A stretch of DNA of 64,000 nt from positions 3,534,001-3,598,000 of the forward strand of contig NZ_CP051180.1 of the NCBI RefSeq assembly GCF_012295575.1, written 5' to 3'. This document shows, piece by piece, positions 5,854 through 15,034 of the stretch. Below the pieces are notes generated by a model. It saw nothing but the letters and a program-made list of their open reading frames with translations. It had not been told where the DNA came from and ran no database searches. The stretch comes from Ferrimonas lipolytica. Its GTDB lineage: Bacteria > Pseudomonadota > Gammaproteobacteria > Enterobacterales > Shewanellaceae. Made by a program: the position numbers and the translations under genes. Position 1 is the stretch's first letter. Each line of letters begins with the position of its first letter.

Positions 5854-7035
5854 ATGAAGTGCGATGTAGTGGTAATTGGCGCTGGCGCGGCCGGATTGAT
5901 GGCGGCAGCAACCGCAGCGAAACGTGGCCGCAGTGTAGTGGTGCTTGATCACGCCAAACAGGCGGGTAAGAAGATCCTCATCAGTGGCGGCGGCCGTTGT
6001 AACTTTACCAATATGGAAGTGCTTCCAAGCAACTTCCTCTGCACAAATCCTCACTTTGTAAAGTCGGCCTTAGCGCAGTACAGCAACTGGGATTTTATCT
6101 CGATGGTGTGTGAGCACGGCATCAGCTACCACGAGCGGGATCATGGCCAGCTGTTCTGCGACGACTCCGCAAAAGATATCGTTAAGATGCTGCTAGCGGA
6201 ATGCGATAAAGGCCAAGCCAGCATTCGCTTGCGTACCAATATTAATGATGTGGTCAACACCGAGTTTGGTTTTCGCGTGCAAACCAGCAATGGTTTGTTT
6301 GAGTGTCAGTCGTTGATTGTTGCCAGCGGGGGGTTGTCGATGCCAAAGCTGGGAGCAACTCCATACGGCTATCAATTAGCGCAGCAATTTGGCTTAACCG
6401 TGATGCCAACCCGAGCGGGTTTAGTACCGCTAACATTGCAGCCGGAAGATAAGCAGCACTTTGAGCCACTGTCCGGTATATCACTGACCACCACCGTGAG
6501 CGCGAACCAAGGCCCAAGCTTTACTGAGCAACTGCTGTTTACCCACCGTGGTATCTCTGGCCCTTCAGTGCTGCAAGCCTCCAACTATCGTGGTGTGGGT
6601 GAGCCTGTTACCGTTGATCTATTGCCGAGCGACGACGTTAGCGACAAACTTACTCAAGCCAGAGAGAAACATCCGAAACGGTTGTTACAAACGGTACTGA
6701 GCGAATGGTTACCCGGACGACTAGCTGAAGCCTTGATGGCTAAGCAACAGTGGCCGAACGAGCAGCTGTGCCAGCTCAACAAGATGCAGCTGGATAACAT
6801 CGCTTCAACGCTTAATGGATGGCAATTGAAGCCAGCAGGTGACGAAGGTTATCGTACCGCCGAGGTCACCCTAGGAGGGGTCGACACTGATCAGATCTCG
6901 TCCAAAACAATGGAGTGTAAAACCGTTAATGGCCTGTACTTTGCTGGCGAGGTGATGGACGTTACCGGTTGGCTTGGGGGCTACAATTTCCAGTGGGCTT
7001 GGGCATCTGGCTATGTAGCAGGAAGCAACGCGTAA
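5854..7035 (+). CDS. HI0933/YhiN-family FAD-dependent oxidoreductase
   Basis: This 393-residue flavoprotein has an N-terminal FAD-binding Rossmann motif GAGAAGLMAA (about 8-17), the family motif KILISGGGRCNFTN (about 39-52) and the C-terminal FAD segment FAGEVMDVTGWLGGYNFQWA. The YhiN/HI0933 (BaiN-like) family is widespread in bacteria but its physiological substrate is unsettled; some members saturate steroid or similar double bonds. There is no signal peptide, so it is cytoplasmic. It is followed 21 bases later by the MltC-like gene, which may be co-transcribed. The family call is secure and the function is not known. Confidence 0.9.
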   Translation: MKCDVVVIGAGAAGLMAAATAAKRGRSVVVLDHAKQAGKKILISGGGRCNFTNMEVLPSNFLCTNPHFVKSALAQYSNWDFISMVCEHGISYHERDHGQLFCDDSAKDIVKMLLAECDKGQASIRLRTNINDVVNTEFGFRVQTSNGLFECQSLIVASGGLSMPKLGATPYGYQLAQQFGLTVMPTRAGLVPLTLQPEDKQHFEPLSGISLTTTVSANQGPSFTEQLLFTHRGISGPSVLQASNYRGVGEPVTVDLLPSDDVSDKLTQAREKHPKRLLQTVLSEWLPGRLAEALMAKQQWPNEQLCQLNKMQLDNIASTLNGWQLKPAGDEGYRTAEVTLGGVDTDQISSKTMECKTVNGLYFAGEVMDVTGWLGGYNFQWAWASGYVAGSNA

Positions 7036-7056
7036 ATAAGCGTTATCGGCTTAACC

Positions 7057-8100
7057 ATGAAGGTGTTGCAGGCGCAATTAACGATAATGTTGCTGTGGGC
7101 GTTAAGCCCAACAACTTTAGCTACTGAGTTTACGCATTACGAAGACGACGTAGCGACACTGCTGCAAGAGTATCGGCGCGATCAATATAGCGGCTTCCAG
7201 TTTGACCGCGGGGTTGAGCCGAGCTTACTGCAGATGCACGACGAACAGGGCGGACAAGTTAAGGCCGACTTCGCTCGTGGTGAAATCAACATCGATGCGG
7301 TTTCTCAAGCCGCCCTGCAGCAATCGATAGTGCGGCTGCTGTTAACCCAATTTGATCCGAACGAAATCGATATCCAAACCGCTAATGATTTTGGTTTGGT
7401 TAATAGCAGCAAAAAGCCATTTTTTTATAATCAGATCCTCGATACCGATGGCAAGCCGATAGAGTTTGAATGGCGTGCCCAACGCTATGCGAAGCATCTG
7501 TTGCAGCGCAGTCGCTACGAGAATGGACGCTATTGGGTGACTATCCCCATGAGTGCCAATCATACTCAGATCGCCGGTGGCAAGTACGTTGCTTTTGCTC
7601 AGAGTGCCAGCGTTCGGCATCAGGTGCCGGTATCATTAGTGATGGCGATTATGGAGACCGAAAGCTCCTTTAATCCAATGGCACGTTCTCGCTCTAATGC
7701 TCTTGGTTTGATGCAAGTTAAAGCCAATACCGCTGGGCGAGACTACTTCGCTTTGATTAAGGGTTATCAACACACACCATCTGCAGCTTATCTCTATCAA
7801 CCCGAAAGTAATATCGACTTGGGAGCTGGTTATCTGCGGATCTTGCAGCAGCGTTATCTTAAGGGGATCGATGATCCGCTCAAGCTCGAATATGCGGTGA
7901 TAGCGAGTTACAACGGTGGCAGTGGCAACCTTTGGAAGAGCCTGAACCCACAAGGCAATAAACGCAACGCCATTGCTCGTATCAATCGGATGTCGAGCAC
8001 CGACTTCTATTGGTTTTTAACCAATCGCCACAACCGCAAAGAGACTCAAAACTACGTTAAAAAGGTGACAGCCAAACAGCGTAAATACCTTCAGCTTTGA
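7057..8100 (+). CDS. MltC-like lytic murein transglycosylase
   Basis: The 347-residue protein has a DUF3393-type N-terminal domain (about 25-180), as in MltC, and a C-terminal SLT domain with ME-TESSFNP (catalytic Glu202), GLMQV and AYNGG. Lytic transglycosylases cleave the MurNAc-GlcNAc bond of peptidoglycan and form 1,6-anhydromuramic acid. E. coli MltC is an outer-membrane lipoprotein. Here the signal peptide (about 1-22) contains no Cys and so no lipobox, and the enzyme should be soluble in the periplasm. It lies 21 bases after the flavoprotein gene. Confidence 0.88.
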   Translation: MKVLQAQLTIMLLWALSPTTLATEFTHYEDDVATLLQEYRRDQYSGFQFDRGVEPSLLQMHDEQGGQVKADFARGEINIDAVSQAALQQSIVRLLLTQFDPNEIDIQTANDFGLVNSSKKPFFYNQILDTDGKPIEFEWRAQRYAKHLLQRSRYENGRYWVTIPMSANHTQIAGGKYVAFAQSASVRHQVPVSLVMAIMETESSFNPMARSRSNALGLMQVKANTAGRDYFALIKGYQHTPSAAYLYQPESNIDLGAGYLRILQQRYLKGIDDPLKLEYAVIASYNGGSGNLWKSLNPQGNKRNAIARINRMSSTDFYWFLTNRHNRKETQNYVKKVTAKQRKYLQL

Positions 8101-8138
8101 ATCATTAGCAACATCAACTTTACTGATAATGTGATCAG

Positions 8139-9044
8139 TTAGCTGTTCTCTTGCAGCTCTTTCGCTAGACGTCGAGCCTGCAGGGTGATGCACTCTCGTA
8201 GCGGATTTACTTGCGAATCACGCCGCCAGATAAAGGTTAGTGGCCGTTTCATATTGAGCTCGGGTACGTTCAGCTCGATAAGCTCACCGCTTTTAACGCA
8301 GTCGCGAATATCAAAGTAGGGCAGGCAGGACAGGTATAACCCCTCTGCTACCAGCTTCTTTAACACCCGCACCTGTTCATACTCGCGCCATACATCAAGA
8401 TCCTCGATGTGACCATGCAGCGCGCTTTCAAAACTGGAGCGAATCCCTGATCCGCGTTCGCGAAGCACCCACTGAGCTCGCTCTAATTGAGCGTAACTTA
8501 CCTGCTTAAAGCGCGCATAGGGGTGATTGCTGCTGGCGACAATAGCGAGGTGGTCGTAGCACCAGATCTCTTGCTGGATCTGGTTATCGTCGCAACGTCC
8601 CTCAATGATGCCAAAATCGTATTGGAAAGAACGTACTCCCTCGATCACCTGATCGGTGTTCTGAACGCCCATGTTGATTTTGAGTGCTGGAAAGTCACGG
8701 TCGAGATCGCGGATTACCTCGGGGAATAGATGCTCGGCAGCGGTTTGACTAACGCCCACATTGATTTCGCCACTGATGATCTCCTGCTGCGCAAAGCCTG
8801 ACTCTATCTGGCCTATATCCAACAATATTTTTCGGGCTTTAGGGCGGAGCCAATTGCCCCAAGCGGTTAGTGCCATGCGTTTATTTTGGCGCTCAAACAA
8901 CGGGTGTCCCAACATCCTCTCTAGCTGAGCCAGTGCCATACTGGCGGCTGACTGGCTCTGAGCTAGCTCTTCAGCTGCGAGGCTGACGCTACCGGTACGA
9001 GCGACCGCTTCGAAGATGGACAGTTGTTTAAGCGAGAACCGCAT
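8139..9044 (-). CDS. LysR-family regulator, paralogue 1, divergent from the CBS gene
   Basis: The 301-residue LysR regulator has a winged helix (about 3-62) with FEAVARTGSVSLAAEELAQS as recognition region, followed by a periplasmic-binding-like effector domain (about 90-295). It is strongly similar over its whole length to the regulator at 9868-10782, so the two arose by duplication. The start ATG has a GGAGG ribosome site. It is transcribed away from the CBS protein gene across a 221-base gap that holds the operator-like motif at 9090-9121. The effector is unknown. A role in controlling the CBS/FocA genes is inferred from position. Confidence 0.9.
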   Translation of the reverse strand: MRFSLKQLSIFEAVARTGSVSLAAEELAQSQSAASMALAQLERMLGHPLFERQNKRMALTAWGNWLRPKARKILLDIGQIESGFAQQEIISGEINVGVSQTAAEHLFPEVIRDLDRDFPALKINMGVQNTDQVIEGVRSFQYDFGIIEGRCDDNQIQQEIWCYDHLAIVASSNHPYARFKQVSYAQLERAQWVLRERGSGIRSSFESALHGHIEDLDVWREYEQVRVLKKLVAEGLYLSCLPYFDIRDCVKSGELIELNVPELNMKRPLTFIWRRDSQVNPLRECITLQARRLAKELQENS

Positions 9045-9089
9045 GGTTCCTCCGGGGATAAAAAAGCTGCTGAACCTTCATCATATAAC

Positions 9090-9121
9090 TTGATGATGAT
9101 GTTCAACATAATCAATTTCAT
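9090..9121. promoter_or_regulatory. Candidate LysR operator, copy 1
   Basis: TTGAT, 16 bases, then ATCAATTTCAT. The half sites TTGAT/ATCAA form an inverted repeat. The same motif with the same 16-base spacing stands at 10843-10874, between the paralogous LysR gene and focA-CBS. Inside it, TTGA-N9-TCAA (9090-9106) is a further dyad. Conservation between two otherwise diverged intergenic regions is the main support. Confidence 0.6.
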
Positions 9122-9265
9122 TTATGTGAAGGCGAAATATACCGTAGAGCCAAGTTGAGGAGGGCGACGAGAGTCATTTAGTGATAAACGCCGGTTACTT
9201 CTCTTGAATTGATTTGTTGAGGTGCGAACACCTCACCGCAACCTAGGCTCGTTAAGGGGTACGTT

Positions 9266-9808
9266 ATGGTATTAGATGACCATTTGATTATTGATGTAAT
9301 GGAGCGTAACCCGCTAACTTTACTTGCAGATATGTCTGTTGCTGAAGCATTAGCACAGTTTGAACAAGCTAATGTGCAGGGCGCGCCAGTTGTTGATGCC
9401 GACAAGCGTTTGCTCGGTTTCTTCTCGGTGCACGATCTGCTGGTAAATCTATGGCGCCTTGATTACGCCAAGCAGCAACAAGCGGTGAGCGTAGCTTCTT
9501 TGATGACGACTGAAGTGCACACCGTTCGTGGGAGCGATAGCGTGCTGCAACTGGCAGAGTACATGAGCATCGATCACGATCAGCTATATCCAGTTAATAG
9601 CAGCGGCATGATGCTGAATATGTCTGACGCTGATTTAGAGCAGCGCATCCGCAACATGAAGGTCTCACGACCTAAGCAGTACCCAGTTGTGGCAGATGGC
9701 ATCGTTATTGGTTTGGTTAACCGTGGTCACATCGCTAACCTAATGCAGGGCCTGTGTTACCGTGGCAGCGCTGAGCAAGAAGCAACAGATGCCAACCAAG
9801 TGGCGTAA
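9266..9808 (+). CDS. Stand-alone paired CBS-domain protein
   Basis: The 180-residue cytoplasmic protein consists of two CBS motifs. CBS 1 is about residues 8-65 (IIDVMERNPLTL ... FFSVHDLLVNLW) and CBS 2 about 78-160 (LMTTEVHTV ... IVIGLVNRGHIANLM). CBS pairs usually bind adenine nucleotides such as AMP, ATP or SAM and gate a partner. The whole protein aligns with the C-terminal 165 residues of the FocA fusion at 10962-12398, sharing for example STEV/TTEV, QLYPVN and YPVV. It has no effector domain of its own, so it may act in trans on a transporter, or may be the relic of a fusion. It ends in a bidirectional terminator. Confidence 0.88.
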   Translation: MVLDDHLIIDVMERNPLTLLADMSVAEALAQFEQANVQGAPVVDADKRLLGFFSVHDLLVNLWRLDYAKQQQAVSVASLMTTEVHTVRGSDSVLQLAEYMSIDHDQLYPVNSSGMMLNMSDADLEQRIRNMKVSRPKQYPVVADGIVIGLVNRGHIANLMQGLCYRGSAEQEATDANQVA

Positions 9809-9837
9809 TACATAGAGTTGTATTGCTTGATAAAAAG

Positions 9838-9865
9838 AACGCTGGCCTAAGTCAGCGTTTTTTGT
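9838..9865. terminator. Bidirectional terminator between CBS gene and second LysR gene
   Basis: Stem AACGCTG / CAGCGTT (9838-9844 and 9853-9859), T-rich on its right side and A-rich on its left side, so it can stop transcription of both convergent genes. Confidence 0.8.
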
Positions 9866-9867
9866 TT

Positions 9868-10782
9868 TTAACTATTTACCGGTTCGATCTGCATCGACTT
9901 AATCCATCGCAGCGATTCCGATTTAATGCAGTCTCGTAGTGGGTTATCGATAGCATCGGCGCGCCAAATAAAGGTCATTGACCGTCTCATGTTTAGCGCC
10001 GGTACCTTTAACTCAATCAGGTTTCCATTCTCAATCGCGTGCTTTACATCGAAGTAAGGCAAGCACGACAGGTAGGTGCCACTGGCTACCAAGCTTTTAA
10101 TCACTCTTATCTGTTCAAATTCTCGGCGTACATTAAGTTGATCGAGATGGCCCTCAATCGCCTCTTCAAATATCGCACGGATTCCAGAGCCCTGTTCCCG
10201 TAGGACCCATTCTGCTTGCTCCAGCTGACTTAAGCTAACGCGTTTAAAGCGGGCATAAGGGTGGTTTTTGCTGGCAACAATCATCAAGTGATCCCGACAC
10301 CAGATCTGTTGGGCTATCTGGCTGTCGTCGCAATTGCCTTCGATGACCCCGAGGTCATATTGATAGTTGCGGATTCCCTCTATCACCTGCTCTGAATTCT
10401 TCACCGACAAGGCGATGCGTAGTTGAGGGTAATCAGCATCAATATTTTTGATAACAGATGGGAAAATATGCTCGGCAGCGGTTTGGCTTACCGCCACGCG
10501 AATGTCGCCATTGAGGATCTGTTGTTCCGCAAAGCTGGCTTCAATCTGATTGATATCATGCAATATGGTTTTGCATTTAGGTCGCAACCAGTGGCCCCAA
10601 GTGGTTAGCGCCATGCGCTTACTTTTGCGCTCAAACAGCGGTTTACCAAGGCTTTTCTCTAACTGCATCAGTGCCATTGAGGTTGCAGATTGGGTTAGCG
10701 CGAGTTCGTCGGCGGCTTGGCTTACGTTGCCGGTTTTGGCAATCGCCTCGAATACAGCTAGCTGTTTGAATGAAAACGTCAT
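9868..10782 (-). CDS. LysR-family regulator, paralogue 2, divergent from focA-CBS
   Basis: This is a LysR regulator of about 304 residues with an N-terminal winged helix (FEAIAKTGNVSQAADELALT) and effector domain, closely similar to the regulator at 8139-9044. ATG at 10782 aligns with the start of that paralogue (TFSFKQL versus RFSLKQL); a GTG nine bases upstream is possible, and neither has a strong ribosome site. It is transcribed away from focA-CBS, whose control is its most likely job. If FocA moves formate, the effector may be formate or a related small acid, but nothing in the sequence shows this. Confidence 0.88.
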   Translation of the reverse strand: MTFSFKQLAVFEAIAKTGNVSQAADELALTQSATSMALMQLEKSLGKPLFERKSKRMALTTWGHWLRPKCKTILHDINQIEASFAEQQILNGDIRVAVSQTAAEHIFPSVIKNIDADYPQLRIALSVKNSEQVIEGIRNYQYDLGVIEGNCDDSQIAQQIWCRDHLMIVASKNHPYARFKRVSLSQLEQAEWVLREQGSGIRAIFEEAIEGHLDQLNVRREFEQIRVIKSLVASGTYLSCLPYFDVKHAIENGNLIELKVPALNMRRSMTFIWRADAIDNPLRDCIKSESLRWIKSMQIEPVNS

Positions 10783-10842
10783 GGGAGGCACTCGTCGATA
10801 TCAAGGAAGATTACTGTCAGTCATTATCCACCATCAATTCCC

Positions 10843-10874
10843 TTGATAGCTATCCTCAGCATTATCAATTTCAT
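10843..10874. promoter_or_regulatory. Candidate LysR operator, copy 2
   Basis: TTGAT (10843-10847), 16 bases, ATCAATTTCAT (10864-10874). It is identical in half sites and spacing to copy 1 at 9090-9121 and also shares a T-CA-CAT pattern just before the right half. Confidence 0.6.
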
Positions 10875-10961
10875 ATGTAAGTGCTTGCACGCGTAAGCTG
10901 CCGAGGTTTTTCACTGTTCAGTAATCCAATTCAATTGTGAATGTGTCACTCAGAGGTAGCC

Positions 10962-12398
10962 ATGTCTATACCCGCACTAGGGAAACCGGAACCAAGTCAG
11001 TTTTCTCCACCGCAAATGATGGAGCAGGCGGAGATATTTGCCATGAGCAAAACGTCAAAACCGACCGGGGTTGCGATGGGCTTGGCTATCATGGCAGGGA
11101 TATTCATCAGTTTGGCTTTTGTGTTTTACACCACAGTAACTACCGGTAACGCCAGTTTAGGTTGGGGTCTTAATCGCCTGATTGGTGGTTTGGCGTTTAG
11201 CTTGGGATTGATCTTGATTGTGGTCTGTGGCGGAGAGCTGTTCACCAGCACGGTACTGTCGTTAATTAACCGAGTTAATGGCCAGATCTCAACCAGTAAA
11301 CTGGTAAGTACTTGGGCCAAGGTTTTTGTCGGTAACTTTATAGGTGCCGCCTTTTTGGTAGCTTTGGTGATGGGCGCGCAGCTGTACGCCAATGGCGCTG
11401 GCCAGTGGGGGTTAAACGCGCTGAATATTGCCCAACACAAACTGCACCATTCACCGCTGCAAGCGTTTAGCTTGGGGGTGTTGTGTAACATGTTGGTGTG
11501 TTTGGCTATCTGGATGACCTTCAGCACCAAGAATATTGGCACCAAAGCGATGTTGATGATGATGCCGGTGGCGTTGTTCGTTAGCTCTGGTTTTGAACAC
11601 TGCATTGCTAACCTGTTTATGGTGCCACTGGGGATTGCGATTCAATCAACTGCTGGGCCGGAATTCTGGTTAACTTTGGGAGTTGATAGTAGCGTTTATG
11701 CCGACCTTACTTGGGGCCACTTTATCGTTAACAACCTGATTCCAGTAACCATCGGTAACATCGTTGGTGGCGCAGTGGTTGTTGGGTTAGGTTACCGCAC
11801 TATCTTCCGGACATTACCAAAAGCTACGGCAACCTCAACCGCCACCGTTATCGACTTCTCACAGAAATTCAGAGCTTTTGCCTTACCGCTAGGACAACGT
11901 CGGATCAGCGACATAATGGATGCTAAGCCGTTGCTACTGCGTGGCGATCAAACCGTTGCTGCCGCCTGCGCAGAATTGCAACGGCTGCAACTTGAGGGGG
12001 CCGTCGTGGTTGATGCTAACCTAGCTGTGATTGGCTATTTTTCCCACCACGACGTGATGGTGGATCTGTGGCGCAATAATTATCAACGTCGCGATGAGGG
12101 TCGGTTGGTACAGCATGTGATGTCTACCGAGGTAACCAGCATTAATGGTAATGAGATGGTGCTTACCGTCGCTGAGCAGATCTGCATTGCTCCACAGCAG
12201 CTGTATCCGGTGAATCAGCAAGGTGCTCTTATCAACCCTAACGGTAATAAGCAGGCACCACACCTTAGTCAGTATCAGGATTATCCGGTTGTAGTAAACC
12301 AACAGGTTGTTGGTCGCATCAGCCGTCTGCATATTGCCAGCGTGATGCAAACCCTGTTTGAAAATAACGAGACTCAGCGTTCGCTTGAATCTGCTTAA
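10962..12398 (+). CDS. FocA-type formate/nitrite transporter fused to a C-terminal CBS pair
   Basis: The 478-residue protein has an N-terminal FNT channel domain (about 20-285, six membrane helices). The family's central-gate His lies in SGFEHCIANLFMVPLG (His213). FNT proteins form pentamers that pass formate or related small anions across the inner membrane. After a linker rich in Ala and Thr, a CBS pair (about 313-470) closely resembles the free CBS protein at 9266-9808. Typical FocA proteins are about 285 residues and lack CBS domains, so the fusion suggests gating by a nucleotide. ATG 10962 is preferred over the in-frame ATG at 10941 because AGAGGT precedes it. The formate dehydrogenase at 48-53 kb gives it a plausible partner. 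Confidence 0.88.
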   Translation: MSIPALGKPEPSQFSPPQMMEQAEIFAMSKTSKPTGVAMGLAIMAGIFISLAFVFYTTVTTGNASLGWGLNRLIGGLAFSLGLILIVVCGGELFTSTVLSLINRVNGQISTSKLVSTWAKVFVGNFIGAAFLVALVMGAQLYANGAGQWGLNALNIAQHKLHHSPLQAFSLGVLCNMLVCLAIWMTFSTKNIGTKAMLMMMPVALFVSSGFEHCIANLFMVPLGIAIQSTAGPEFWLTLGVDSSVYADLTWGHFIVNNLIPVTIGNIVGGAVVVGLGYRTIFRTLPKATATSTATVIDFSQKFRAFALPLGQRRISDIMDAKPLLLRGDQTVAAACAELQRLQLEGAVVVDANLAVIGYFSHHDVMVDLWRNNYQRRDEGRLVQHVMSTEVTSINGNEMVLTVAEQICIAPQQLYPVNQQGALINPNGNKQAPHLSQYQDYPVVVNQQVVGRISRLHIASVMQTLFENNETQRSLESA

Positions 12399-12544
12399 CA
12401 GGACGCTTAGATTGGTGATAGTCACCGATGTAATTGGCTACTATTGTGCTCCATCGTTTTTGGTCGCGACGAGCGGCGAAGACTTTGGAGCAACATCAAT
12501 AACGGAGTATGATGCCCAACGCCGAACAAAAATAAGGATATTAA

Positions 12545-15034
12545 GTGGCTTCAGACCATCGTATAAGCAAATATTTGTCGCCAAAGCTTTCGCTATTGGT
12601 GTGCTTGCCGTTGGCTTTGATGCTGTGTCTATCTGCACTGGTGTTGGTTGATTTTCTCCAAGGCCGAGACATGATGCGCAACCACCTGCATCAGGCTCAG
12701 CAGCGATTGCTGTTACAGCAGGCTCGGCAGATTGAACAGTTGTTGGCGGCATCGGGAACCGCACGGATCCGCGATGTTGCCGAGCAGAGTTTATTGTCGT
12801 GGTCGCAAGATAAGGAGTTGCTCGAAGCGGCGATTATCGACCGCGAACAACGGATCTACCTTGGCTCTAGTTCGGCTTGGCGCGGCGGCCAAGCGCAAAA
12901 CCTCTTGGATGGGTTTGAATCAGAGCTGGCGCGACAGTCGCTGCTCAGTGGCCACTACGTGATTGAATCAAAACCTGAGCGCGCCAGCGTGCAGATCTAT
13001 TACCCCTTGCAGCAATTAAAACTTCACCTTGAACCACGATTAATCTATCTAGAACAAGATCTCACTGGCCTCAATAGCATCAGTAAGCATCTGTTTATCG
13101 AACGACTGGTTAAGTTGTGGAGCATAGGCTTGGTGTTGGTTGGCGGCATGGTGTGGCTAAGCTATCGCACCATCATCGTGCCACTTAAACAAATAACCGA
13201 AGCCTCTCGTCGTCTTGGTGAAGCGGATCTACCGCCGCCACAGTTGGGGCCGATTGCCGAACTGCACAAGTTTTGGCATCAGCTGTATAAGTCCAACAAT
13301 CGCGTGCGTAAAGGCTATTTGCAGCTGGTAACCAGTGAGCAACGATGGTTGTATGCCATTGAAGGGATGAAGGTAGGGGTGTGGGATTGGCATGTTCGTG
13401 ATGGCCATGTTTACCTGTCACACCACTGGAAGGCGATGCTTGGTTACCGCGATGATGAACTGTCATCCAGCTATGACGCTTGGGAGCAACGGATCCACCC
13501 AGAAGACAAAGACCGCACCTTAGCTTTGCTAAAACAACATCTGGATGGACAGTCCGGCATCATGGAGAGCGTGATCCGTCTCCGCCATCGTGATGGTCAC
13601 TATATCTGGGTTATGGATCGCGGCATGGTGGTTGATTGGGATAGCTCCGGCAAAGCCAGTCGCATGGTTGGCAGCCATGTTGATATCACCGATGAGATGA
13701 ATCGTAAGTTACAGGGTGCCGATGATGATCAGGCGGTGGCACGATTAGGGTTGGTTAATAGCCTCATTCCACTGGTTCGAACCGACGATGGGGTTGGTTA
13801 TAGTGCTTTATTCTTCCTCGATATTGATGACTTTAAGCTGGTTAATGACAGCTTCAGCCACCTTGATGGCGATCAGTTGCTAAAGCAGGTACTGGTTCGG
13901 ATCAAGAAACGTTTTGGTCACGCCAGTTTAATCCATCGCCTTCATGGCGATGAGTTTGTGGTGTTGATTGGCGGCATCGATCCACACCAGCAACCGGTGG
14001 TCGCACAGGTAAACCTATTTGCTGAGCAGTTGATGAAGTGTTTTGAGCGACCGTGGGTCGTTAACGGCACCCAAGTTTATCTTGGTACCTGCATCGGCAT
14101 CAGCGTGTTTCAACCAAGCTCCAAGCTCGATCCCGAGGTGCTGCTGTCTCAGGCGGAGTTAGCGGTATACCAATGTAAAGAACTGGGTCGAGGCAGCTAT
14201 CGTTTGTTTTCCAATGAGGTGCAACAAAAGACGCGCCAGCGTTATTGGTTGCGTGACTCCCTTAGCCGTGGCTTAGCACAAGGTGAGTTAAATATGCACT
14301 ACCAGCCTGTGCTCGATAGCAGTGGTGAACTGCATGCGGCTGAGGCATTGATCCGTTGGTACCACCCTGAGCGCGGTGAGATCCCCCCAGGGCAGTTCTT
14401 ACCGGTGGCTGAGCGCTACGGTTTAGCTGAGGCGCTGGCGGAGTTGCAACTGGCTACCGCCTGTCGTGATTTGGCGGTGTTGCGTCGTTATGGTTTGGAT
14501 GAGGTGATGTTGAATGTCAGCTTACGCCAGTTGTCATGGCCGCAGTTTGTATCTCGACTTGAATACCATTTAGAACTGCAAGGGCTGGCGCCACAAATGC
14601 TGGTACTGGAGATTTCTGAGTACTATTTGCCGCAACTGACACCAGAAACTATTTCAGTGTTGGAGAAGATCAAGGCATTGAATGTGCGCATTGCCATTGA
14701 TCACTTTGGAGCCGGTTATTTGATGCTATCGCAGTTACAACAGTTACCAATAAGTCAGATTAAACTGGATGCCCGCTATCTGCGTCACCAAGGCGACAGC
14801 AGCAGCGAAGCACTGCTACTGGCGCAAGCTAATGTTGCCAAAACCTTATCGCTGGAATGGATGGCCAGTGGTGTTGATGAAGAGTCTTGCTACCAGATGC
14901 TACGCCAACATGGTTGCCAACGCTTTCAAGGGCATCTGCTTAGCGCTCCTCGCTCACTGGATGAGTTGCTGGTGCTGTTGCGTCATCGAGGTCGTGCAGG
15001 GGCTGGGGCGCAAACCACTCCAACAACCGATTAA
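12545..15034 (+). CDS. Membrane sensor with PAS, GGDEF and EAL domains, both output domains altered
   Basis: The 829-residue protein has membrane segments at about 15-37 and 191-210 flanking a periplasmic domain. A HAMP-like linker, a PAS fold (about 260-390), a GGDEF domain (about 410-555) and an EAL domain (about 575-815) follow. GGDEF domains make cyclic di-GMP and EAL domains degrade it. Here the GGDEF motif reads HGDEF (467-471). The EAL motif is kept (600-602) but the metal-binding DDFG loop reads DHFG (719-722), so phosphodiesterase activity is doubtful. The start is GTG after AAGGAT. Its last 95 bases overlap, tail to tail, the 3' end of the hydrolase gene on the other strand. A signal-sensing or c-di-GMP-binding role is inferred. 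Confidence 0.88.
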   Translation: MASDHRISKYLSPKLSLLVCLPLALMLCLSALVLVDFLQGRDMMRNHLHQAQQRLLLQQARQIEQLLAASGTARIRDVAEQSLLSWSQDKELLEAAIIDREQRIYLGSSSAWRGGQAQNLLDGFESELARQSLLSGHYVIESKPERASVQIYYPLQQLKLHLEPRLIYLEQDLTGLNSISKHLFIERLVKLWSIGLVLVGGMVWLSYRTIIVPLKQITEASRRLGEADLPPPQLGPIAELHKFWHQLYKSNNRVRKGYLQLVTSEQRWLYAIEGMKVGVWDWHVRDGHVYLSHHWKAMLGYRDDELSSSYDAWEQRIHPEDKDRTLALLKQHLDGQSGIMESVIRLRHRDGHYIWVMDRGMVVDWDSSGKASRMVGSHVDITDEMNRKLQGADDDQAVARLGLVNSLIPLVRTDDGVGYSALFFLDIDDFKLVNDSFSHLDGDQLLKQVLVRIKKRFGHASLIHRLHGDEFVVLIGGIDPHQQPVVAQVNLFAEQLMKCFERPWVVNGTQVYLGTCIGISVFQPSSKLDPEVLLSQAELAVYQCKELGRGSYRLFSNEVQQKTRQRYWLRDSLSRGLAQGELNMHYQPVLDSSGELHAAEALIRWYHPERGEIPPGQFLPVAERYGLAEALAELQLATACRDLAVLRRYGLDEVMLNVSLRQLSWPQFVSRLEYHLELQGLAPQMLVLEISEYYLPQLTPETISVLEKIKALNVRIAIDHFGAGYLMLSQLQQLPISQIKLDARYLRHQGDSSSEALLLAQANVAKTLSLEWMASGVDEESCYQMLRQHGCQRFQGHLLSAPRSLDELLVLLRHRGRAGAGAQTTPTTD

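Follow-up and report, generated by a model that had tools for sequence, protein, structure and literature searches.

A FocA-type channel with a CBS tail and a linked LysR regulator in Ferrimonas lipolytica and its relatives

A 64,000-nucleotide stretch of the Ferrimonas lipolytica genome (contig NZ_CP051180.1, positions 3,534,001 to 3,598,000; hereafter the window) holds, in the order given by its list of open reading frames (ORFs), a LysR regulator gene on the minus strand (LysR1), a gene for a free CBS protein on the plus strand, a second LysR gene on the minus strand (LysR2) and, on the plus strand, a gene that joins a formate channel of the FNT family to a CBS tail (FNT-CBS). The locus raises the question of whether this is a dedicated control system of a formate channel and what part the free CBS protein has in it. 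The original prediction, made from the DNA letters, had described duplicated units of a LysR gene divergent from a gene ending in a CBS pair, one of them carrying a full FNT channel; ORFs and Pfam domains bear out both the layout and the fusion. We read the locus as a conserved module in which a YeiE-like LysR protein controls a FocA-type channel with a CBS tail, the free CBS gene of the window being part of a channel-less duplicate, and place the probability of this reading at about 0.7. The case is built from sequence: a dedicated LysR, a shared palindrome, a conserved pore and a conserved first CBS repeat with an S-x-x-D motif.

The channel part of FNT-CBS matches Form_Nir_trans in Pfam with 235 bits (residues 26-285) and clears the FocA equivalog model TIGR04060 with 370.4 bits against a cut-off of 290.1, while a second FocA model, PRK10805.1, is not reached (308 against 440). 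In an ungapped alignment with an offset of 11, T102 and H220 correspond to positions 91 and 209 of FocA (PDB 3q7k), and their equivalents are invariant across 17 fusions; T91 and H209 of FocA are termed crucial in the available part of one report (PMC9380403). The FocA-like controls without a tail are 280-346 residues long, three diverged FNT proteins of 260-262 residues being kept separate. The module is not in an operon with pflB, the genome's own pflB lying at 517842 and the module at 3.54 Mb, more than 1 Mb away; in many f1/g2 genomes (f and g numbers are our handles for families and groups within them, G and L numbers those for genomes and loci) pflBA are close to the fusion locus. Structure models drawn from the window proteins and the L003 relative were unusable, with mean predicted local distance difference test scores of 36.2 and 41.6 from alignments of two and three rows.

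Fusions of this kind are common within the order. Matches were called fusions where they extended at least to position 473 of the 487-position profile, and such matches occur in at least 79 of 394 order genomes (96 genomes of the family were also searched), 77 of them free of internal stops, which were seen in G324 and G248. Seven families are represented (f1, f2, f9, f11, f12, f20 and f21), of which f1 is presumably the Shewanella/Ferrimonas-like one. Among 369 genomes sampled across the class, the window's own was the sole one in which the fusion was matched at E ≤ 1e-110; more divergent fusions would escape this threshold. A related-locus search returned one relative, Psychromonas marina, and in a plasmid collection six large replicons of Vibrio/Photobacterium match at least 80% of the fusion; one of these, H5, carries no annotation at the match. 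The original prediction would have been refuted by a fusion both common and already characterised; the fusion has proved common, but no published description was found.

Both LysR proteins consist of HTH_1 and a LysR substrate domain in Pfam and are 62-63% identical to each other. A profile search for this type in the 394 order genomes was cut at E ≤ 1e-130, a value chosen once the matches had shown a gap, 2.8e-135 being followed by a second group that ran from 4.4e-129 to 5.0e-115, and finds the right type in 83 genomes. Among the matches listed, 78 genomes have both LysR and fusion, one the fusion only, five the LysR only and 310 neither, so that 78 of the 79 genomes with a fusion carry the LysR, as against 5 of 315 others. 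The two genes lie within 1 kb of each other in 74 of the 78, divergent in 44, convergent in 30 and co-directional in none. In the loci that were fetched, a right-type LysR stands within two ORFs of 58 of the 69 fusions, which include one with a broken tail (L049); it is near 4 of 26 tail-less FNT genes, three of which share a fusion's LysR, and near 1 of 23 (L040) when independent tail-less genes are counted. Four FNT genes close to a CBS ORF (L045, L048, L097 and L118) were set apart from the tail-less count, and in some genus-mate loci genes lying under antisense ORFs were located by tblastn. Linkage, the other point on which the original prediction was open to refutation, is very strong for the LysR; a free CBS gene of this type was found adjoining the fusion in two genomes alone, that of the window and a relative, G035.

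At L039 the LysR adjacent to the fusion was rejected as not of the right type (58 bits), the right-type one lying about 4.4 kb further on. Elsewhere, L045 (in G070) has a right-type LysR near a gene for a 285-residue FNT protein, after which come CBS fragments; the whole looks like a fusion gene that has been interrupted. Four genus-mates (L046, L048, L061 and L062) have an FNT-LysR-FNT-CBS triple, in which a second, diverged FNT gene of 260 residues is convergent to the LysR beside the FNT-CBS gene.

The best curated NCBIfam model for both LysR proteins is that of YeiE (NF040889), which, according to the available part of one source (PMC12880088), binds sulfite. It is conceivable, then, that the regulator is YeiE itself, a sulfite-responsive LysR, and that a sulfur anion, not formate, passes through the channel. 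We regard this as very improbable. At 224.4 and 228.4 bits the window proteins score less than half the model's cut-off of 480, and YeiE membership was rejected; G248 has a separate LysR paralogue, also below the YeiE cut-off, beside a PF03601 gene (L156:5512-7696), a family we take to be YeiH, so that this pair would resemble YeiE-YeiH. The channel, moreover, clears the FocA model and keeps the equivalents of T91 and H209, and many f1/g2 fusion loci adjoin pflBA.

LysR-type regulators characteristically have a T-N11-A palindrome at both their target and their own promoter. An 11-mer shared by the two intergenic regions of the window, found by eye, is elsewhere one arm of ATCAAT-N3-ATTGAT, a 15-bp sequence that fits such a site, and both window units carry the palindrome between the LysR gene and the CBS-bearing gene. 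With up to one mismatch it occurs upstream of 41 of 69 fusions, compared with 0.4% of shuffles and none of 30 FNT genes lacking a fused tail; after similar upstream regions are collapsed the figure is 14 of 27. Versions with altered spacing or arm order are absent from all 69 fusion upstreams. Matches are spread over the groups: f1g2 (12/21), f1g1 (3/11), f11 (6/10), f20 (2/5), f21 (7/10), f12 (4/4), f9 (5/6) and others (2/2). Where the LysR and fusion genes are convergent, the palindrome lies within 200 bp upstream of the LysR gene in 24 of 31 cases, compared with 6 of 766 other ORFs, and for 21 of the 24 sites the distance to the estimated start is about 100 bp or less; for divergent pairs it is upstream of the LysR gene in 14 of 27. 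Since the consensus was drawn from fusion upstreams, the result for LysR upstreams in convergent pairs is the stronger, independent support. Control of channel synthesis by predicted LysR binding at the palindrome is strongly supported: the LysR protein would bind the 15-bp site both ahead of the channel gene and ahead of the gene that encodes it.

In G020, G026, G045 and G063 no LysR stands beside the fusion; it adjoins DUF3360-PflB-PflA instead, and the palindrome is matched in the stretch that separates LysR from DUF3360. The fusion, which lies elsewhere, keeps a match of its own with 0-1 mismatch. Neither G046, whose tail is broken, nor G053, whose tail is absent, gave a LysR match at E ≤ 1e-60; G066 has an intact fusion without the LysR, and the fusion upstreams of G066 and G046 contain no palindrome within three mismatches. 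At one or fewer mismatches it was likewise absent from the pflB regions of G000, G035, G021 and G015. In G066 a generic CBS protein of 153 residues (L036:6858-7319; 61 bits to the tail profile) is encoded just upstream of the fusion. DUF3360 (PF11840; 510 residues, function unassigned) recurs near this LysR type and/or pflBA, at L038, L047, L063, L067, L142-L145, L150, L159 and L035:5936.

Pfam finds CBS in two stretches of the free protein (74 bits) and in one stretch of the fusion (residues 322-373, 27 bits), whose second half it misses and which is recognised only through alignment with the free protein. The two were originally described as the same paired-CBS domain: they belong to the same family, but at 36-39% identity they are not near copies. 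S/T-x-x-D is a ribose-binding motif of CBS repeats, and repeat 1 of the fused tail has it as S368/D371, the serine being shared by 55 and the aspartate by 53 of 57 other fusions. W377, E412, R441, P445 and, in repeat 2, R462 are invariant in the 57 fusions from other genera, and each of the six free CBS proteins counted, of eight found in the genus, keeps them too. The c-di-AMP-binding CBS model of CbpB (NF041630) scores 18.8 against a cut-off of 125. We infer, with moderate to weak confidence, that the tail tunes the activity of the channel to an adenine-type ligand in the cytoplasm, which would sit on CBS repeat 1, the tail in turn affecting conductance.

Conservation is poorer within the genus of the window, whose 11 fusions keep W377 in 2, R462 in 5 and R441 in 10. 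The ten lowest ratios of CBS to FNT identity (0.44-0.51) are all from this genus, the window's being 0.45 and that of G035 0.56; the branch of the window's fused tail is long (1.68) and the tail is altered at R441, P445, D417 and G454. The tail of the window channel might on these grounds be a degenerating remnant without function. This we find distinctly improbable, given that its reading frame is intact, that it keeps S368, D371, W377, E412 and R462, and that the 10 further fusions counted in the genus have a tail as well.

The origin of the window arrangement can be traced in the trees. The four-gene order recurs in G035 (locus L035), and its identity there implies that the arrangement is more than chance. 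The four LysR proteins of the two genomes form one clade (support 100/99; 93/90 in a smaller tree richer in paralogues) that splits into a fusion-linked pair (100/94) and a free-CBS-linked pair (100/95); as the split follows the partner, the duplication predates the divergence of the window genome from G035. The four CBS parts likewise form one clade (98/94). The free CBS gene is a duplicate of the fused tail. In the preferred reading, the split from G035 would have followed a duplication of the LysR/FNT-CBS unit, and one of the two units would then have lost its channel, leaving LysR1 and the free CBS gene with the same kind of site upstream. The free protein may by now have taken over some of the ancestral CBS role, as it keeps the invariant residues and the fused tails of the genus have diverged. 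G166 has a comparable pair of LysR and free CBS genes, its LysR grouping with the window's (94/94), and G236, with a nearly equal second LysR match, is probably similar.

What, then, does the free CBS protein do? That it acts on the channel in trans, as first proposed, is possible on the sequence evidence; the specific version, in which it is a detached subunit that binds the channel or its fused tail and gates it, we hold to be unlikely. It gains from two natural splits: in G117 (L155:3874-5324) genes for a 303-residue FNT protein and a 164-residue CBS protein are separated by 44 bp, both divergent from the LysR gene, and in G248 (L097:5800-7263) 54 bp separate genes for FNT and CBS proteins of 292 and 176 residues, the latter preceded by the ribosome-binding-like sequence GGGAGGTG. 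The residues that the free protein keeps and many fused tails of the genus have lost, and the palindrome common to both window units, point the same way. Set against this, G002 has the LysR and free CBS genes and no FNT match found in the genome, so that trans action on a channel cannot be the sole role of the free CBS; and the split-off CBS of G248, a genome in which no right-type LysR was found, has lost the equivalents of E412 and R441, two of the five invariant residues. At L155 no palindrome with up to one mismatch lies between the FNT and LysR genes.

A free CBS of the window type is found in 8 of 14 genomes of the genus, shorter, generic CBS matches occurring in most of the others. In five genus-mates (G007, G021, G023, G025 and G031; L053, L055, L057, L059 and L060) a single LysR gene is paired with it at a locus away from the fusion. 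Four of these loci adjoin nadE, and three (L055, L059 and L060) have genes for a PhsA-like molybdoenzyme and 4Fe-4S proteins nearby. These neighbourhoods, which tell against the detached subunit, fit the alternative that the free protein serves another target or is a soluble sensor and that the LysR pair is a small paralogous regulon. So does G002, and LysR paralogues elsewhere partner other membrane-protein genes, namely DUF3360 alone, divergently, at L159 and PF03601 at L156. This alternative is a serious contender, if short of probable; the four-gene order in the window and G035 and the window's shared palindrome suggest a joint role there. Cross-regulation between LysR1 and LysR2, also proposed originally, is plausible, as the operator-like palindrome is common to both units.

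A more ambitious account would make the FNT channel ligand-gated, with CBS a detachable sensor of adenine nucleotides by which the formate pore is opened or closed, as a tail in cis in most lineages and as a subunit in trans in the window and the split-gene genomes, and with the LysR co-controlling the channel, the free sensor and, in f1/g2, the pyruvate formate-lyase locus. Taken as a whole we think it quite unlikely.

Several points weigh against the module as we read it. The palindrome consensus was drawn post hoc from the fusion upstreams tested. In the window genus it is found upstream of 3 of 11 fusions at up to one mismatch (7 of 11 at up to two), and upstream of six free CBS genes once (three times at up to two). 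Several of the matches in the window's own genome, 56 at up to one mismatch as against 9 for a reversed control, lie within genes, as two of the four in the module do (Table 1); most sites were within ORFs in eight regions inspected, with intergenic sites in L135, L136 and L137 (at 2860), where further targets are possible. At most the 4-5 first-look candidates per genome were scored in the fusion and LysR searches, and the genomes share ancestry, so that the counts are not independent events. Five genomes have the LysR without the fusion: G002, G117, G215, where the fusion is truncated by a contig end, G005, where a tail-less FNT gene is divergent from the LysR, and G006, a counter-example in which the LysR, near a contig end, is kept and the FNT match has no tail. 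G248, with its split gene, has a fusion-type match without the LysR, and a split-off CBS with the losses noted above. Pairing of the window's free and fused CBS parts is weak (99/54), with the fused branch the long one. Finally, five genus members (G015, G018, G027, G029 and G033) have diverged tails and no free CBS of the window type, so that drift alone is no proof of a handover to the free protein.

The features of the locus are collected in Table 1. Alignment of homologues places the likely start of LysR2 at an ATG three codons inside the listed GTG, and FNT-CBS has an alternative in-frame ATG at 10962. Rfam gave no match at gathering score over 7000-13000, and predicted promoters and terminators at the locus were no more numerous than in shuffles. 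Immediately downstream of the fusion is a PAS-GGDEF-EAL gene (12545-15034 of the window).

Table 1. Features of the LysR/CBS locus, in window positions
Feature	Position	Strand	Description and basis
LysR1	8139..9044	-	301 residues; YeiE-like LysR regulator, partner of free CBS gene; ORF, Pfam, tree
Operator-like palindrome ATCAATTTCATTTAT	9111..9125	.	1 mismatch to ATCAATNNNATTGAT; between LysR1 and free CBS gene
Free CBS protein	9266..9808	+	180 residues; paralogue of fused tail; ORF, Pfam, alignment
Terminator-like stem-loop	9834..9863	.	Between free CBS gene and LysR2; such sites no commoner than in shuffles
LysR2	9868..10791	-	307 residues; partner of FNT-CBS gene; ORF, Pfam, tree
Palindrome match, 1 mismatch	10438..10452	.	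Within LysR2 coding sequence; chance possible
Palindrome match, 1 mismatch	10540..10554	.	Within LysR2 coding sequence; chance possible
Operator-like palindrome ATCAATTCCCTTGAT	10833..10847	.	1 mismatch; between LysR2 and FNT-CBS
FNT-CBS	10941..12398	+	485 residues; FocA-type channel about residues 20-290, CBS tail about 316-478

The LysR-linked FNT-CBS is a real and apparently undescribed variant of known parts. A second, widespread form of FocA, with a CBS tail built in and a LysR of its own, would amount to an independent layer of control, and the predicted operator, together with natural deletion, split and duplication variants, makes the question of gating directly testable. No description of a FocA or formate channel with a CBS domain was found in the open-licence literature, which does not prove its absence from print.

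How does the module compare with known systems? CLC, MgtE and OpuA are membrane transporters with a cytoplasmic regulatory CBS pair that is often ligand-responsive; FNT-CBS resembles them in bearing a probable cytoplasmic CBS pair on a membrane transporter, but its channel fold is unrelated. With YeiE the likeness lies in the best curated model and in solved relatives (8sbh and 7erp), the difference in the low score and in the link to FNT-CBS. The window's own genome encodes a second FocA (L034, 976000-991000), of 298 residues, which unlike FNT-CBS has neither CBS domain nor LysR. Its neighbours are a formate-dehydrogenase-like molybdoenzyme gene with an in-frame TGA, likely selenocysteine, and genes for FdhD, SelA, a GAF/sigma-54 activator and a GTP-binding protein that is probably SelB; another neighbour is presumably HypA-like. 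For FocA itself, the available parts of the literature describe a short C-terminus with the residues Y-L-R (PMC5572259) and, in Escherichia coli, control by the N-terminus and PflB (PMC11841067), the term CBS not occurring in the part of the latter that was available. A survey of FNT proteins of 2017 places FocA, in the part available, among those with the longest C-terminal segments, and a term search of its main text finds no mention of CBS, fusion or LysR (PMC5525234). FNT-CBS shares with FocA (TIGR04060; PDB 3kcu, 3kly and 3q7k) the whole pore domain, the T91/H209 equivalents and a model score above the cut-off, and differs from it in a CBS tail of about 180 residues, in its LysR linkage and in its distance from pflB.

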